Shown here piece after piece: positions 1 to 7,859 of a stretch of 38,985 nt of DNA. The position numbers were made by a program, and so were the translations under genes. Under the pieces are notes generated by a model. It was not told where the DNA came from and made no database searches. It saw nothing but the letters and a program-made list of their open reading frames with translations. Positions within the stretch are counted from its first letter, which is position 1. Every line of letters starts with the position of its first letter. The DNA comes from an uncultured Roseburia sp. (lineage in GTDB: Bacteria; Bacillota; Clostridia; Lachnospirales; Lachnospiraceae), in the NCBI GenBank assembly GCA_947088345.1, contig CAMUGE010000033.1, positions 1 through 38,985 of the forward strand, given 5' to 3'.

Positions 1-359
1 AACAGCAAGAGCTTGTCGCTGAAATTACAGAAGCGATGAATGAGCTTATAAACGGCGTGGAATATGAAGATGATTTTTACAAAGAAATCTTAGATAAAAT
101 GGTTGTAAACGACAAAGACCATATTGATGTGTATTTGAACCTGCTCCCTCTCAAATGGAGCTATACAGTTGCAAAAAGCGTAAACTGTCCGCAGGGTAAA
201 TCGCTAAAAAAAGCGCAGGCCCCTGAGATGGAACATTTCAGGGGCTTCTCTACCTATATCGGTGAGAATGCCCGCCACCTGACGGTACGGCATGCTGTAA
301 CGCTGGGAGAGATAGCGCATGGATGCGCCCATTTCGCCGTCAGGGCCGCCGTACTGTGA
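1..359 (+). CDS. C-terminal end of a probable serine recombinase (partial, runs off the left edge)
   Basis: An open frame enters from the left edge (codons start at base 3) and ends at a TGA at 357-359. The first ~60 residues (an amphipathic helix, then a strand-rich segment with DKMVVNDKDHIDVYL) look like the C-terminal tail of large serine site-specific recombinases from integrative elements; this is recalled family resemblance, not a search. The tail probably ends naturally near base 185-200. The remaining residues up to 359 are encoded antisense to the cotJC fragment, so the reading frame runs out of the element into host DNA. Placement of the recombinase at the element end next to a disrupted sporulation gene matches SpoIVCA beside sigK. 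The N-terminal catalytic domain is outside the window, so the family call is an inference. An alternative is another element-borne DNA-binding protein. Confidence 0.5.
   Translation, partial: QQELVAEITEAMNELINGVEYEDDFYKEILDKMVVNDKDHIDVYLNLLPLKWSYTVAKSVNCPQGKSLKKAQAPEMEHFRGFSTYIGENARHLTVRHAVTLGEIAHGCAHFAVRAAVL
206..245 (-). terminator. intrinsic terminator at the element end
   Basis: An 8-bp perfect stem, GCCCCTGA (219-226) with TCAGGGGC (238-245), is followed on the minus strand by CTGCGC and a run of seven T residues (206-212). It would stop cotJ transcripts that enter the element, directly beyond the truncated cotJC. On the plus strand the hairpin lacks a T-tract. Confidence 0.7.
244..256. 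other. putative recombination junction (attachment core) inside cotJC
   Basis: On the minus strand, codons for CotJC ILTDIG (ending with the GGT at 252-254) are followed by AGAGAA, where homologs would have an ACAGAAGAA-like sequence for TEE. Homology to cotJC stops within this interval, and the remaining sequence toward base 1 belongs to the element. The exact crossover dinucleotide cannot be fixed without the other end, but AGA/GAA at 246-251 would fit a short shared core. Confidence 0.5.
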
Positions 360-436
360 AATAATAATTTTAGCAATCTGTGCGTTTGGTCTGGTAATAT
401 TGACCGGATACTCTAATCTTCTCTCATAATTCCACA

Positions 437-703
437 TTATCTGCAATCTCCTTCCCACGGCAGCGGCATATCGCACCATACCCAATTATTTCCCATATCT
501 GCCGAATCCACGACAAGCGGCCCGTATTTCTGAGCAAATGTTTTTAACGCTCCTTTGCGCATCCCCAGATATTTCTGGAACACTTCCTGCGCTTTTGCAT
601 CCTCCGGATGGCTGTCTAAATAAAGCGTCATATCGGTCACGACAAAACTTACTACGTCAATCCAATGCAGAAGCTCTGCTCTGTTCATCTGGTTCATCAT
701 CAT
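437..703 (-). CDS. cotJB: spore coat protein CotJB
   Basis: This is an 88-residue protein with the CotJB hallmarks: an N-terminal helix with LLHWIDVVSFVVTDMTLYLDSHP, the central DAKAQEVFQKY block and the C-terminal MGNNWVWCDMPLPWEG motif. In Bacillus CotJB belongs to the CotJ inner-coat group made in the mother cell. The start overlaps the cotJA stop by 4 bp (ATGA), and its own stop overlaps the cotJC start. The three genes thus form one translationally coupled cotJABC unit in the standard order. The length is normal for the family and no lesion is visible, in contrast to cotJC downstream. Confidence 0.93.
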   Translation of the reverse strand: MMMNQMNRAELLHWIDVVSFVVTDMTLYLDSHPEDAKAQEVFQKYLGMRKGALKTFAQKYGPLVVDSADMGNNWVWCDMPLPWEGDCR

Positions 704-924
704 CTTCTTCTACCTGCCTTTCCCCCATAAAACGGAAGGTCAAGCTCAGGAAAAATTGTTCCCTGCTGCAGCCCTTTCTCCGGATCACACATTTCGGTAA
801 AATTCTGCCATGGCACATATGCCATGGCAACGACAAATTCATCTTGTGTTGTTTTATAAGAAAAATCCCGGCCGCAGCTGCAGTTGTAGTCGGGCTGCTG
901 GGATAAATTATAATTTCTCATCAT
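700..924 (-). CDS. cotJA: spore coat associated protein CotJA
   Basis: The product is 74 residues from the chosen start. It contains the CotJA core VVAMAYVPWQNF, EMCDPEKGLQQGTIFPELDLPF and YGGK, and an N-terminal Tyr/Cys stretch (QQPDYNCSCGRDF). An in-frame ATG exists at 954, but two observations favour the ATG at 924. First, an AAAGGA SD lies 9 nt before it. Second, a sigma-K-type promoter at 957-984 would start transcription near base 950, downstream of the ATG at 954. CotJA is a mother-cell coat protein that co-assembles with CotJC in Bacillus. It is the first gene of the cotJ operon here and is intact. Confidence 0.9.
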   Translation of the reverse strand: MMRNYNLSQQPDYNCSCGRDFSYKTTQDEFVVAMAYVPWQNFTEMCDPEKGLQQGTIFPELDLPFYGGKAGRRR

Positions 925-956
925 ATTTTTCATTCCTTTACTGATTCGTTTCATTA

Positions 957-984
957 TAATTTATGCCGCTCTCTGCCTTTTTGT
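957..984 (-). promoter_or_regulatory. candidate sigma-K-type mother-cell promoter for cotJABC
   Basis: On the minus strand the sequence reads AC (983-984), then 17 nt, then CATAAATTA (957-965). This matches the Bacillus sigma-K pattern AC-N16/17-CATANNNTA. Sigma-E shares the CATA part of the -10, but no GTCATATT-like -35 is present at the right spacing. The predicted start is near 950. Confidence 0.55.
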
Positions 985-3008: not shown

Positions 3009-4265
3009 TTACAATGACATCGTATATTCCCAGATTTTATCTGAACTCTGAAACAATTCTCCAAACCCGAGGTCTTTGATTGTCACTTTCACTTCCACAT
3101 CTGAAATCGGTTTCGCAGCAATCCGAAGCCGCGTCACCTTATCCGGTCTCTGCGGAAAATCGGACAATTCAAGTTTCTCAATCTTTGCCTCCCTGCTGCT
3201 CGGCGCCTGCAGCCAGAAATCAATGGATGGCGTACCGCTTAAAATCACCTCGCACTCCCCGACTTTCTCATACCAGTTGTCACCCGCACTGATCAAAGTA
3301 TAAAATTCCAATTTCCCGCAATTTTTGACTTTCAGGCTGACATTAACTTTCATTTCTGTCGCACCCATATACACAAACGGCCAGTACACAAGATCCGCCT
3401 TTACGGCTGCGGCATAACAGGCTCCCTTGGAATACAGATTTTTCCCGAGAAAGACACGATGACCTTTACACAAAAACGCAAGGGACGTCTTCATCCAATC
3501 GCCGTCAAATCCATCGCCCACAAGATAGACCGTCGCAATAATATGACCTCGCATAAACTGCTGCGCAACCTGATAAAAATCGCTGTCTGCCTGCTCACGT
3601 CGTATTCTGTACTTTTTTTCTTCCATAATCAGAAGCTGCGGCGTTGTGCGAAGATTGCGCTGCAGTCTGAAGCAGGACATAGTATCTCCCCTGTAATCAA
3701 ACAGGCAGACATCATGGCGGTAGAGTTCTTCACGCTGGGAATAGGCAAAATAATAAAAGCTCTGCCTGCGCTCAATCAGCGTAATCTGATTATCCCTAAG
3801 GCCAAGGGAAGGCGCCATCCCCAGAAACAGGTCGGTTGCTTCCCTGGATAGTTTGTCCAGTGTGATTACAAGCATGTCCGGAACAACCGGCTTTAACATA
3901 CTGCCAGCGACAAACATCAGTCTTTTTATGTAAATACATAAAACTTCCCGCGCAGTATAGGATTCGTGAGCCGCTGCAAACTTCTCGTCGGCGTCCGCTC
4001 CCTTTGCATAAAACGTGATCAGCTCTCCTGCAGCCGCACGAAAAAGCAGACGGTCCGCCATAACGCCGCCTCTCTCTTTCTCCTTTTGAGCCTCCTCCCC
4101 GATCAGCCACGTTTTCCCATGTTTTGCAATTGCAAGCGGAATTTGAAACCGCTCGCTCCCCGCAATCATACTGACCGTTTCCGGTTCTTTCTTATTAAGT
4201 TGGTAATAACTGATAACCGCATATTGGTTATCCATATCGATTCCCAGATAAAAATGATTCTCCAT
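3009..4265 (-). CDS. DUF5716-type protein with a degenerate Hsp70/actin-like ATPase fold
   Basis: This 418-residue protein appears to match the DUF5716 family of Clostridia (recalled, not searched). The N-terminus (YLGIDMDNQYAVISYY) resembles the phosphate-1 loop of Hsp70/actin ATPases. VCLFDYRGDTMSCF (~188-201) occupies the phosphate-2 position but replaces the usual DxGGGT. ATVYLVGDGFDGDWM followed by LYSKGACYAAA (~250-295) matches the adenosine loop region. The last ~110 residues (from ~305) are beta-rich. It may bind nucleotide, but catalysis is doubtful. It starts 6 nt after the 1195-residue upstream gene, so the two are almost certainly co-translated. Alternatively it is a pseudo-ATPase scaffold such as a MreB/FtsA-like cytoskeletal adaptor. 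Confidence 0.72.
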   Translation of the reverse strand: MENHFYLGIDMDNQYAVISYYQLNKKEPETVSMIAGSERFQIPLAIAKHGKTWLIGEEAQKEKERGGVMADRLLFRAAAGELITFYAKGADADEKFAAAHESYTAREVLCIYIKRLMFVAGSMLKPVVPDMLVITLDKLSREATDLFLGMAPSLGLRDNQITLIERRQSFYYFAYSQREELYRHDVCLFDYRGDTMSCFRLQRNLRTTPQLLIMEEKKYRIRREQADSDFYQVAQQFMRGHIIATVYLVGDGFDGDWMKTSLAFLCKGHRVFLGKNLYSKGACYAAAVKADLVYWPFVYMGATEMKVNVSLKVKNCGKLEFYTLISAGDNWYEKVGECEVILSGTPSIDFWLQAPSSREAKIEKLELSDFPQRPDKVTRLRIAAKPISDVEVKVTIKDLGFGELFQSSDKIWEYTMSL

Positions 4266-4271
4266 CGCTGC

Positions 4272-7200
4272 CTACACTAATCGAAACCTTTCCTCGACAA
4301 ATTGAGTTAATAACGCATATTCTTTCATATCCTGTTTTAACAGGTCACTGTCGGCAGGCCGCTCGGACGAAAGCTTTTCCAAAAGCAGATTGATGCGCCC
4401 GTACGCCCCGTAAACAATGCTTTTTTGTATCTCTTTGGCCTCCAGACACCCGCTCTGTGTCACCCGATCCTGCTCGGAGCTGTTTTCTGTAATGTAATAC
4501 TGTATGGCTTCCCCGTAAAATAAAATAAATTCCTTTACGTAGATTCCGTCATACATTTCCGTCATCTCTTCTCTGCAAAATTCCCCGCCGTCTTTGCGGT
4601 GCGAGATGGAAACAACCGAATAAGGTTTTGTATGGTACTCCACAAACCACTTGTCAAACAGCAGGTATTCGCGCAGCAGCCGTTCCTCATATCTGCGGTA
4701 AAATCCAAAGTATATCCCTCTCTCAATATTTTCCCGCAAAATAATTTCCAGGATATTGCTCTGTACGTCCGTTAGCGTCTTTGCCTCCGAAAAATATTTC
4801 ATCAGCCCAATTTTACAGGTTTCATTGATCTTCCCGCCCTTTTGATATCGGTCTAAAATCTGCAGAAATACTCTGACCGGAATAATGGCATCTTTTGTAA
4901 TATAGGTATTTGCATAATAAGTCAGATATGCGTCGCAGATCTGCTCTTTCCCGCCGCCCGCCTGATAGCTGTCATAGATTTCCTCCGCGCAACCGATATA
5001 GTCGGTTGTATAGAGCATCTGCGTTAAGATGCGCTCCTCCAGTTCAAACGTATCAATGAACATCTGTTCCGCCGCTTTCCAGATCTGTGCCATATGTTTC
5101 GTCGGACCCTGATAAAAACGGCACAGATAGATCAGGATGCTCTCGTTGCCGCCCCCGTCAAAAAAAACAGAACACGCCAGTCCAAGCAGCAGGTCATCCT
5201 CCTCAAATTCCGATGCAACTACGGCATGCGTACATATTTTCTCACGCGCAGGCCCTTCCAGATAATCATACCCGAAATCCCTCACAAGGCCGTACGCCTT
5301 ATCAATCATACCGTATTCCGCGAGATAACAGATGACCTCGCGACGCTTTGCAACCGTTATCCCCGACACGTCCAAAAGAGGGAGAAACCTTTTAATATCA
5401 TCCTGATAGCCGTAGACCTGGCAGAGTTCAATGCGGTCGAGCAGAAGTTCCATGCGGTATGTCTCTCCGATATCCGCCGTTTTAATAAATTTAATAAAGA
5501 TATCAGAGTTATTTTTTAATATTTCACTGCCCCTTTTCTGCAGAATCATATACAGCATATATTCTACGCATGTGGGCGCAAGCTCATGGCACCGGTCTAC
5601 ATAAAGCTCTACATGAATTAACGGCTGCGTCTGATATACAATGCTCTCGGTAAACCAGTTTCCAAACCCGTCGCAGAGCAGTACGCAAAAATCTCCGGAA
5701 TACGCTTTAAAATAAGCTGTCCCGTTAATAAACGAGACAACCTGCGGTTCTCTCTGCCAACGGTCTAAAATCACTGCATGGCAGATATCCGGATTGATAC
5801 ACGAAATCTTCCAGGTAAAAATAATTTTAGAGAGCGCAATCGCAAGCTCCTCATTTAAAAACCCGCTTTTTAAGATTTCCTGATAGATTACGGCAAGGTT
5901 TTCGTCAATATGTCCGGCTTCAATCTGCTCCATCGCAAATTGTTCCACCATAGACTTATAATTTCGATAAATCTCGGGCTGTTTCTCTTTCTGCAGAATA
6001 ATATTCACAAACAAAACGGCTTTCAGATTTGCAGGAAGCATATTGTCATATCGAAAATACATCTGCAGCATTTTGGGTACTTCGACAACGCAGGTACTGT
6101 CAAGCGACATCAGATAGGCCTCATAAAGCCCGGTGAGCATCAACTGTTCCTCAATCCCCCTTTCATACCACACGATATATTCTTTCCCATACCGCTGACA
6201 GCGAATCAGATATCCGCAGACATCCTCAAGCGTTTCTTTCGATGGCAATACCTGATAACAGACCTCTAAAATTTTGTACAGAAACGGTAAAAACGTTCGT
6301 ACTTTCGGCAAAAGGCTTATGACCTGCCGCGCAATGGACTCTGTCATCACATCCTGCCTCACAGCCCAGAACAATATTCTAATCTCAAAGCTGCCCAGCT
6401 CCCGAATCAGATACGGTTCTTTCTGGTACAGGTAATACACCTCAACATAGTAATACGGACTGTTGTGACCGTTCGCAATCCACTGCTTCAACGCCTTTAA
6501 TTTACCGGGCGGATTTTTATAGTACTCCTCTCTCATATATAAAAGTACCCAAAAAAGCAGCGAACTTCTGCGATTCTCCATATAGATCCGCTCGATCTCA
6601 CCTGCCAGACGGTCCACATAGGACGGTTCACGCTCCATCAAAGTACAAAGATACAGATAATATCCCCAAACCGGCGTATTTTTAGGCTCGCGCTTTCGCT
6701 TAAACTCATCCATCAGCCACTCAGCTTCCTGACGCTGTTTGTTCATCAGAAGCGCCTGCGCTTTCATCAGCGTACAAAGCGCCGTGTCACTGCCAAGTGC
6801 AATCAGATGGTTTAGCTGTTCGATCGACTGTTTGGCCCAAATTCCGGTCACAATCTTTTTTAGCCTGTAATCTACATACAACTGCGCAAGCGAAATATGC
6901 GCCTGCTGTACCTGTCGGTGTACAGGCGCTTCTTTCGCATCATGCTCCCGCTCTCCTCTGACCGTAACCTCAAAAACAACTTTCTGGTCAAAAAGCCAAA
7001 AGATCAGCCTTCCGAAATTCTTACCTGCATGAAGCCTGTCCTTTCTGATATAGTATTCAAACATGCAGATACTGCCCAAAAAATCTTCCGATGTCAGTCT
7101 GTCCTTGACCGGCGCCAGGAACGATACATCGGTAGTTACGCGCAGATCCATATATCCCCAGTCGTTTTTGAGCAGTTCCACCTGCTCCCTGGTATCCTGT

Positions 7201-7859
7201 GAGACATATCCAAAATCCACGCGCGGCTTGCTTAATCGAATGGACACCGGTTTTTTCCGGTGGATTCCAACAAGAAATTCCTCTACTTTCTGCATAGTCT
7301 GCGTGCCCCTGCTAAGGCCCTCATACAAAAGAAGCTCGCGCCTCTCCCCTTTTTTCATAATATTTTTAAAATTCGGGGAATAAAAAAGCTTCGCCGCCTC
7401 CTTTGGCTCCTCTTTTGCCAAATGTACAAAATCACTGATACTGCCAATTTTCCCGACACTCGTCTCAGCGCTGACCCTGTTGATTGCGACCACATAGGAC
7501 AAATTATACTCGCCCTGATTCAATACAAAGAAAAAGTCTCCTTTCCGTATATCGCCGCCGGTCAGCCCCACGCTGTGGAAACGAAAAGAAACCTTTACCT
7601 CCTCCCCTTCGATCCGAGGCGTCAGACATTCCATCCTGGAATGAGAAGTATAGACGAGGCCTTTCATCGGAATGCCGTTTGTGCTCGTGATTGTAAATTC
7701 TCCCGTATAGTCTTTGCCTCCGGCCATCTCAATATCAATCCGGTCCGTAGAAAAGACAACTTCCGGTTTCTCATATACAAATTTGCCGTTTGCCAGCTGC
7801 TGTATTCGTTCGCGCAAAGTAACACCTGCTTTTTTCATTCTATTATTGCATTTTCCCAT
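4272..7859 (-). CDS. giant DUF5717-type protein (beta-sandwich N-terminus plus alpha-solenoid)
   Basis: The protein has 1195 residues and appears to belong to DUF5717 (recalled). Residues ~30-130 form an Ig-like beta domain (VVFSTDRIDIEMAGG...DYTGEFTITSTNG). A second beta domain of the same kind lies at ~205-305 (ISIRLSKPRVDFGYVSQDTREQVELL). The remaining ~890 residues are almost wholly helical with TPR/solenoid-like periodicity, rich in Tyr, Leu and Glu. There is no signal peptide or TM segment, so it is probably cytoplasmic. It is the first gene of the operon and is read from a TTGATT-17-TATAAT promoter that would leave a leader of only ~10 nt. No SD is visible before the ATG at 7859; an in-frame ATG at 7838 is an alternative. 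Its size and fold suggest an assembly platform for the downstream products. Confidence 0.75.
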   Translation of the reverse strand: MGKCNNRMKKAGVTLRERIQQLANGKFVYEKPEVVFSTDRIDIEMAGGKDYTGEFTITSTNGIPMKGLVYTSHSRMECLTPRIEGEEVKVSFRFHSVGLTGGDIRKGDFFFVLNQGEYNLSYVVAINRVSAETSVGKIGSISDFVHLAKEEPKEAAKLFYSPNFKNIMKKGERRELLLYEGLSRGTQTMQKVEEFLVGIHRKKPVSIRLSKPRVDFGYVSQDTREQVELLKNDWGYMDLRVTTDVSFLAPVKDRLTSEDFLGSICMFEYYIRKDRLHAGKNFGRLIFWLFDQKVVFEVTVRGEREHDAKEAPVHRQVQQAHISLAQLYVDYRLKKIVTGIWAKQSIEQLNHLIALGSDTALCTLMKAQALLMNKQRQEAEWLMDEFKRKREPKNTPVWGYYLYLCTLMEREPSYVDRLAGEIERIYMENRRSSLLFWVLLYMREEYYKNPPGKLKALKQWIANGHNSPYYYVEVYYLYQKEPYLIRELGSFEIRILFWAVRQDVMTESIARQVISLLPKVRTFLPFLYKILEVCYQVLPSKETLEDVCGYLIRCQRYGKEYIVWYERGIEEQLMLTGLYEAYLMSLDSTCVVEVPKMLQMYFRYDNMLPANLKAVLFVNIILQKEKQPEIYRNYKSMVEQFAMEQIEAGHIDENLAVIYQEILKSGFLNEELAIALSKIIFTWKISCINPDICHAVILDRWQREPQVVSFINGTAYFKAYSGDFCVLLCDGFGNWFTESIVYQTQPLIHVELYVDRCHELAPTCVEYMLYMILQKRGSEILKNNSDIFIKFIKTADIGETYRMELLLDRIELCQVYGYQDDIKRFLPLLDVSGITVAKRREVICYLAEYGMIDKAYGLVRDFGYDYLEGPAREKICTHAVVASEFEEDDLLLGLACSVFFDGGGNESILIYLCRFYQGPTKHMAQIWKAAEQMFIDTFELEERILTQMLYTTDYIGCAEEIYDSYQAGGGKEQICDAYLTYYANTYITKDAIIPVRVFLQILDRYQKGGKINETCKIGLMKYFSEAKTLTDVQSNILEIILRENIERGIYFGFYRRYEERLLREYLLFDKWFVEYHTKPYSVVSISHRKDGGEFCREEMTEMYDGIYVKEFILFYGEAIQYYITENSSEQDRVTQSGCLEAKEIQKSIVYGAYGRINLLLEKLSSERPADSDLLKQDMKEYALLTQFVEERFRLV

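Follow-up and report, generated by a model that had tools for sequence, protein, structure and literature searches.

A mobile element family that intervenes in the spore coat gene cotJC of gut Clostridia and probably restores it in the mother cell

The window, by which we mean the whole 38,985-nucleotide stretch of DNA from an uncultured Roseburia sp. that was analysed, is the entire contig G000:C33 of an 80-contig draft genome that is 90.5% complete, and the intervening element described here is consequently truncated at the contig start. The left end of the window holds the following features:

1..251, plus strand: the element's left end (bases 1-260 match L144 at 100% identity)
3..359, plus strand: open frame that encodes the C-terminal end of a large serine recombinase (homology over about 3-218)
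219..245, minus strand: hairpin that overlaps the arm of attL (190-260 folds at -24.9 kcal/mol, z -3.0)
230..254, minus strand: attL, the GGT codon of G62 and then the element arm AGAGAAGCCCCTGAAATGTTCC, identical to the attL of L144
252..437, minus strand: cotJC, first 62 codons (Pfam PF05067, 1.6e-15; aligned to intact CotJC)
437..703, minus strand: cotJB (Pfam PF12652, 6.6e-25)
700..954, minus strand: cotJA (Pfam PF11007, 5.8e-18)
957..984 (984-957), minus strand: sigmaK-like promoter match ahead of the cotJ operon, AC-N17-CATAAATTA, equalled by 10/2000 resampled sequences

Both cotJA and cotJB had been described as intact in the initial annotation of this DNA, and their Pfam domains are indeed matched over almost the full length. 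The true start of cotJA may lie downstream of the annotated ATG, in view of the promoter-like match. A mother-cell-type promoter upstream of the operon had also been claimed, which stands in part: the sigmaK-like match makes it plausible, but the sigmaE form was absent in a promoter pattern scan upstream of cotJA, repeated with the form from PMC3789822. An earlier sigmaE scan before cotJA, with another consensus and spacers that were too short, yielded no match better than chance, as 140/500 shuffles did equally well. For cotJC, the Pfam Mn_catalase model matches at positions 1-69 over window 204-485 (minus strand, 1.6e-15), and BLAST of CotJC extends to residue 69 via residues encoded by the element. 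Comparison of the attL of L144 and other relatives places the cut after G62, in agreement with the earlier claim that CotJC homology stops at DIG (residue 62); past G62 the frame continues for 15 further residues (REAPEMFHLRGLRFF) and then reaches a stop. Judging from its predicted fold, the hairpin at 219..245 could possibly act as a transcription stop for the cut cotJC, and a strict terminator scan found no terminator. The window genome encodes SpoIVA. Window 3009-7859, upstream of the cotJ operon, contains an ORF of 418 aa that by eye resembles HSP70 as well as a 1195-aa ORF, and the 418-, 258- and 388-aa ORFs of the window have no NCBIfam match.

The open frame at the left end was assigned through its relatives, as this ORF alone has no match in Pfam, NCBIfam or PHROGs. 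Its last ~70 residues share 65% identity over 71 aa with the end of a complete recombinase from G015 (L088), a genome of the window's genus in which the recombinase sits at the same cotJC junction, and the tail is 97% identical to the recombinase of L041, an IMG/VR contig. The complete G015 protein has Resolvase, Recombinase and zinc-ribbon domains, which supplies, via relatives, the N-terminus that the initial annotation had proposed to seek left of base 1 and bears out its view of this ORF as the tail of a serine recombinase facing the junction. The frame itself reads on through attL into the antisense DNA of cotJC. The proposed skin-like anatomy is also upheld: a site-specific recombinase lies at the edge of an element within cotJC, the window holding its tail and relatives a complete serine recombinase at that junction. 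The target is cotJC and not sigK, the insertion site of skin proper.

Window bases 1-260 are also 98.8% identical to L148, a locus of Lachnospiraceae bacterium A2 that holds the complete 33-kb element with a recombinase 99.5% identical to that of L041, and the genome of L144 (a Lachnospiraceae record) contains both a complete recombinase and the cotJC 3' half. In the L144 genome, attL consists of GGT joined to AGAGAAGCCCCTGAAATGTTCC and attR of GGAACATTACCGCTGCTTCTCTGGGT joined to AC; an attR arm matching the window-type attL is found in this genome and in complete elements. The attL and attR arms of the relatives are near-inverted copies around a GGTA core (the window attL being identical to that of L144), and crossover probably takes place within GGTA. 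Such arms fit a large serine recombinase. Two further junctions are more elaborate. At 2478-2609 of L041, a short cotJC middle piece (from residue 28) has serine recombinases on either side. In G004, L100 and L101 combine a left junction of a second site-B type (sites are defined below) with a right junction carrying the window-type attR arm, a sequence arrangement that suggests two elements in tandem at site B.

The junction of the window recurs in many genomes. Scanning the named genomes of GTDB r220 with the L041 recombinase identified 219 relatives, and the best 80 of these 219 were analysed. In 68 of these best 80, a cotJC 5' piece lies on the opposite strand, cut near the same codon, with its inner end between -36 and +90 bp relative to where the recombinase match ends, and in two more of the best 80 a cotJC 5' piece lies at 2.4 and 3.3 kb. 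Another 10 of the best 80 have no cotJC 5' piece within the fetched stretch; for 8 of those 10 loci the whole genome was searched and a 5' piece is present in each, L156 and L196 lying outside that search. The best 80 recombinase loci come from records of Lachnospiraceae, Roseburia, Eubacterium, Oscillospiraceae, Ruminococcus and others. A junction about 250 bp from the contig end of a draft might be an assembly chimera or a chance contig end, but the identical junction recurs in independent assemblies, some with megabase scaffolds, and its presence at 68 of the best 80 recombinase loci makes an artefact extremely improbable. In a phage collection from human fecal samples, two short and unannotated records, MT839280.1 and MT837874.1, have a related recombinase (48% and 43% identity) adjoining a cotJC piece (residues 1-65 and 59-184, respectively), so the recombinase-cotJC arrangement occurs in the human gut also.

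To follow both halves of the gene, 50 genomes with a window-type recombinase were chosen and 49 were searched with full CotJC; the counts leave out paralog-type and second full-length rows, and G132 of the 49 is apparently the same as G015. A 5' piece is present in 49/49 genomes, a piece starting at site B in 41/49 and some downstream piece in 46/49, while no downstream cotJC piece was found by this search in G118, G121 and G148. Removing the element in silico yields an open CotJC of 185-209 aa in 7/8 loci tried, the 5' half of the eighth, L196, being outside its stretch. The seven whole elements measure 3.0, 3.8, 3.8, 4.3, 5.3, 6.9 and 33 kb. Where the halves lie on separate contigs, joining them gave open frames of about 200 aa in 3/3 genomes, that of L144 included, and for other recombinase groups the frame was restored in silico for G054, G052 (two elements) and G084. 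A second full-length CotJC match, at 64-69%, is present in four genomes (G108, G124, G126 and G140).

The 3' half of cotJC had been predicted to lie elsewhere in the genome, which is borne out in the relatives but not in the window draft, where no cotJC 3' piece was found with the Pfam model or with 113-aa and 45-aa queries, an outcome that the initial annotation itself had listed as refuting its proposal. We read this as missing assembly, because 46/49 genomes with this recombinase have a downstream piece; binning readily drops a cotJC piece that has mobile DNA as its flanks. A real loss of the 3' half in the window genome is possible, since two other genomes of its genus, G015 and G032, are also without the piece expected after site B. 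No cotJC 3' piece was found in G032, and in G015 the cotJC middle is missing and the last 35 codons lie at a contig start, with an edge that resembles the site-D edge of G119. Synteny via feoB and gltX did not locate the piece: gltX in G000 and G032 has other neighbours, and G015 has no cotJC upstream of feoB on its short contig.

Beyond what the initial annotation had noticed, the window-type junction is one of several breaks in this gene, which serves as a general landing site. In many gut spore-formers, cotJC is split into two to four pieces. A first survey placed the cuts at codons 28-31 (site A), 62-69 (site B) and 132-137 (site C), and later searches added cuts at 161-180 (site D) and about 98-101 (site E). 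In all, four or five sites are used in the 200-codon cotJC, with three, perhaps four, used within one gene. By best BLAST match, the recombinases group by site, with one group at A, two at B (the window group and a second) and one more at C; most matches of the non-window groups have 25-53% identity to the query. In G052, elements of 45.6 kb (site B) and 24.9 kb (site C) lie on a single contig, and removal of both restores a frame of 202 aa; removal of the elements of G054 (35.8 kb, at A) and G084 (53 kb, at B) likewise yields the full frame. G119 has four cotJC pieces on one contig and hence three elements, and at least two sites are occupied in 21/49 genomes with a window-type recombinase. 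The pieces of G141 fit A, B, C and D, with the stretch 137-163 not found.

The intervening DNA is of several kinds. Among the sampled contents, prophage genes are present in the site-A element of G054, the site-B elements of G052 and G084 and the L042 record. The site-C element of G052 contains a conjugation-type ATPase and a cell-wall hydrolase, which makes it ICE-like. Relatives of the window recombinase occur in a 47-kb record that includes terminase and portal, and in elements of 3-33 kb with toxin-antitoxin, relaxase and ParB among the sampled genes: the small site-B elements carry MazF/PemK, AbiEii, HipA or DUF4143 genes, and the 33-kb site-B element carries a relaxase and ParB. As regards phage structural genes, the window holds only the end of its element. 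Some splits look different. The site-E segment of G311 (L268, 1570-15641) contains, by eye, pdxS/pdxT-like and other chromosomal-looking genes with a recombinase-like ORF at its edge, and may be a rearrangement rather than an element, so some cotJC splits are not plain mobile elements. In G136 (L269, 1537-4360), a site-D segment of ~2.8 kb holds, by eye, an ORF of 506 aa that looks like a serine recombinase and a small ORF resembling a toxin gene. In G239 (L266), two copies of the cotJC 3' half, at 1652-2086 and 5192-5626, are equal at 434/435 bases and lie 3.5 kb apart, with a single 5' half on another contig, and G194 (L267) has three cotJC 3' pieces in a row.

The frequency of such breaks was estimated in an even sample across the order of genomes at least 90% complete, of which 120/196 have a CotJC match; 113/120 were counted after dropping matches below 46% identity (paralogs) and unlisted rows. 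One contiguous cotJC is present in 63/113 genomes, and 50/113 are without a contiguous gene, though some of these breaks may be contig edges (the G191 piece starts at base 1 of its contig). The breaks fall at A in 14, B in 22, C in 15 and E in 4, some genomes being counted twice, and three of the 50 broken genes match none of the sites. Contig ends account for some of these breaks but not for their clustering. In the sample of the window's genus, 26/44 genomes with a match have cotJC unbroken at both A and B.

A conserved ORF of about 65 codons lies beside the recombinase in 73/84 loci, mostly within about 450 bp before it, and the encoded protein has no match in Pfam, NCBIfam or PHROGs. The regions upstream of the recombinase have a sigmaA-type promoter in 24/47 distinct cases (null mean 0.2) and a sigmaE-type promoter in 0/47. 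Upstream of the small ORF, in regions located by tblastn positions, the pattern ATA-N16-18-CATAnnnT occurs in 27/44 distinct sequences (50/70 in all) and a sigmaA-type pattern in 0/44, both promoter patterns having been fixed after the sequences were inspected and the conserved motif having been seen before the PMC3789822 pattern was set. The null for the sigmaE-type pattern (mean 0.4, maximum 2 in 200 resamples) is generous, as the small-ORF upstream sequences share ancestry. In the part of PMC3789822 available, ATA-N16-CATATATA is reported as a sigmaE promoter with a usual spacing of 16-18 bp. The strict sigmaE form is missing in 17/44 small-ORF regions, that of G015 among them, and both promoters are present in L144, the nearest relative of the window element. 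A repeat overlaps the sigmaA-type recombinase promoter. We propose that the small ORF encodes a candidate recombination directionality factor, by analogy with C. difficile skin, which divides control likewise, and with SPbeta, which does so in part.

The pieces of split cotJC genes are constrained, but less so than intact genes. No internal stop is present in 44/47 distinct 3' pieces and 72/72 distinct 5' pieces, with stops in the other 3/47 3' pieces. Since dN/dS at 0.1<dS<1 yielded no 3' pairs, nearest-neighbour pN/pS was substituted, for which pS is near saturation; the medians are 0.115 and 0.116 for the pieces (3' maximum 0.467), and the corresponding parts of 23 intact genes give 0.049 and 0.083. 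Window-type recombinases have often been transferred recently, as 60/62 recombinase pairs with >97% identity sit in cotJC pieces with <85% identity. Conservation of the cotJC halves may therefore partly predate insertion.

These observations establish a family of cotJC-intervening elements that is real, much wider than one element and skin-like with a new target. The window contains the attL of one such element, and we consider it probable that the element is excised in the mother cell with restoration of cotJC via a sigmaE-driven factor. In the mechanism we envisage, the recombinase would be made in growing cells from its sigmaA promoter and on its own would only integrate. The ~65-aa protein would be made in the mother cell from its sigmaE promoter and would act there as the directionality factor, whereupon the element would leave as a circle. 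This would restore cotJC in the coat-building mother cell, which dies, while the forespore genome would keep the element. Insertion would accordingly be cheap, such that unrelated elements could have used four or five cotJC sites. Searching a viral contig collection with two patterns for the att circle of the excised form found nothing; a further, shorter pattern gave 51 raw matches.

Restoration need not matter, given that B. subtilis spores without CotJC are reported, in the part of PMC12122855 available, to have no apparent defect. This finding favours the view that cotJC is merely a tolerated attachment site, dispensable and left broken, with its conserved halves reflecting recent insertion and the requirements of the att site. 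The frequent recent transfer of the recombinases, the second full-length match in four genomes and the 3' half not found in the window genome point the same way. Such a view is nonetheless unlikely, because 3' pieces that have neither start nor promoter keep a frame of ~140 codons in 44/47 cases, far above what an att site needs, and because the element itself carries a sigmaE-type promoter. That same promoter, before the small ORF, also argues against excision upon ordinary induction by DNA damage or growth phase, through which cotJC would be restored in a manner specific to neither sporulation nor cell type. Ordinary induction would agree with the sigmaA-type recombinase promoter, with the repeat that overlaps it and with several elements being prophages, and we rate it as slightly less likely again than a tolerated site. 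Restoration of cotJC in the mother cell by the element appears likely on indirect genomic evidence, namely cotJC halves that remain open and constrained and the sigmaE-type promoter of the small ORF. We also lean, with less assurance, towards a broader reading in which cotJC serves many elements as a common developmental landing pad. A large share of these gut Clostridia would then have a whole cotJC only in the mother cell, after one to three, perhaps four, independent site-specific excisions, and unrelated elements (prophages, ICE-like elements and toxin-antitoxin mini-elements) would have converged on the gene, since excision in the mother cell leaves insertion almost without cost. As part of this same broader reading, the smallest elements, which comprise a recombinase, a sigmaE-driven small protein and cargo in about 3 kb, would be nearly minimal intervening sequences able to excise themselves.

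Developmental gene rearrangement in spore-formers has so far consisted of a handful of single cases. In cotJC, this pattern recurs at four or five positions and involves several recombinase groups, providing many natural replicates, which can be used to ask why sporulation genes attract intervening elements. Our reading predicts that spores contain CotJC even in strains without an intact copy in the genome. In addition, genome annotation may miss or misname cotJC pieces, and the family offers many recombinase/att pairs together with a candidate directionality factor.

The sporulation genes listed as intervened in the available part of PMC10747680 are sigK, spsM, spoVFB, gerE and yabG, with spoVR added by PMC4191935, and the comparisons that follow likewise draw on the available parts of the papers cited. 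C. difficile skin has a recombinase under sigmaA control, and its directionality factor, a protein of 72 aa, is expressed under sigmaE and SpoIIID (PMC5025042). The cotJC elements resemble it in their large serine recombinase with a sigmaA-type promoter, in a small protein driven by a sigmaE-type promoter (72 aa there, about 65 here) and in a split gene restored by in-silico removal; unlike them, C. difficile skin targets sigK, and its excision and directionality factor are experimental where ours are predicted. In SPbeta of B. subtilis, growing cells produce the recombinase SprA, and the timing is determined by SprB (PMC4191935). Here too a spore-envelope gene, spsM, is split, with a vegetative recombinase and a separate timing factor (a candidate in our case), whereas SPbeta is a single case of one gene and one phage for which excision was shown. 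The gin element in gerE of B. cereus lacks phage genes, as do the mini-elements and the sampled 33-kb element, but differs in its target, its 28.6-kb length and its three recombinases (PMC5595907). The yin element in yabG of C. botulinum is likewise prophage-like and sits in a clostridial sporulation gene; it differs in its gene and in being known from one isolate, in which integrated and circular forms were observed (PMC10747680). A split cotJC was not found reported in the open-access literature, a scope outside which most subscription papers fall, and the main text of PMC10083194, a large survey of serine recombinase targets, contains no word beginning with "catalase" or "spore". In phi027 of C. 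difficile, the prophage att site adjoins a CotJC homologue (PMC11222575, PMC12122855), and one of these papers suggests that expression of this cotJC-like gene is perhaps altered. There, the homologue is a 678-bp ORF downstream of attR that is not described, in the parts available, as split or restored. Within the open-access literature searched, cotJC appears as a new target for elements that intervene in sporulation genes, with phi027 as its nearest hint.
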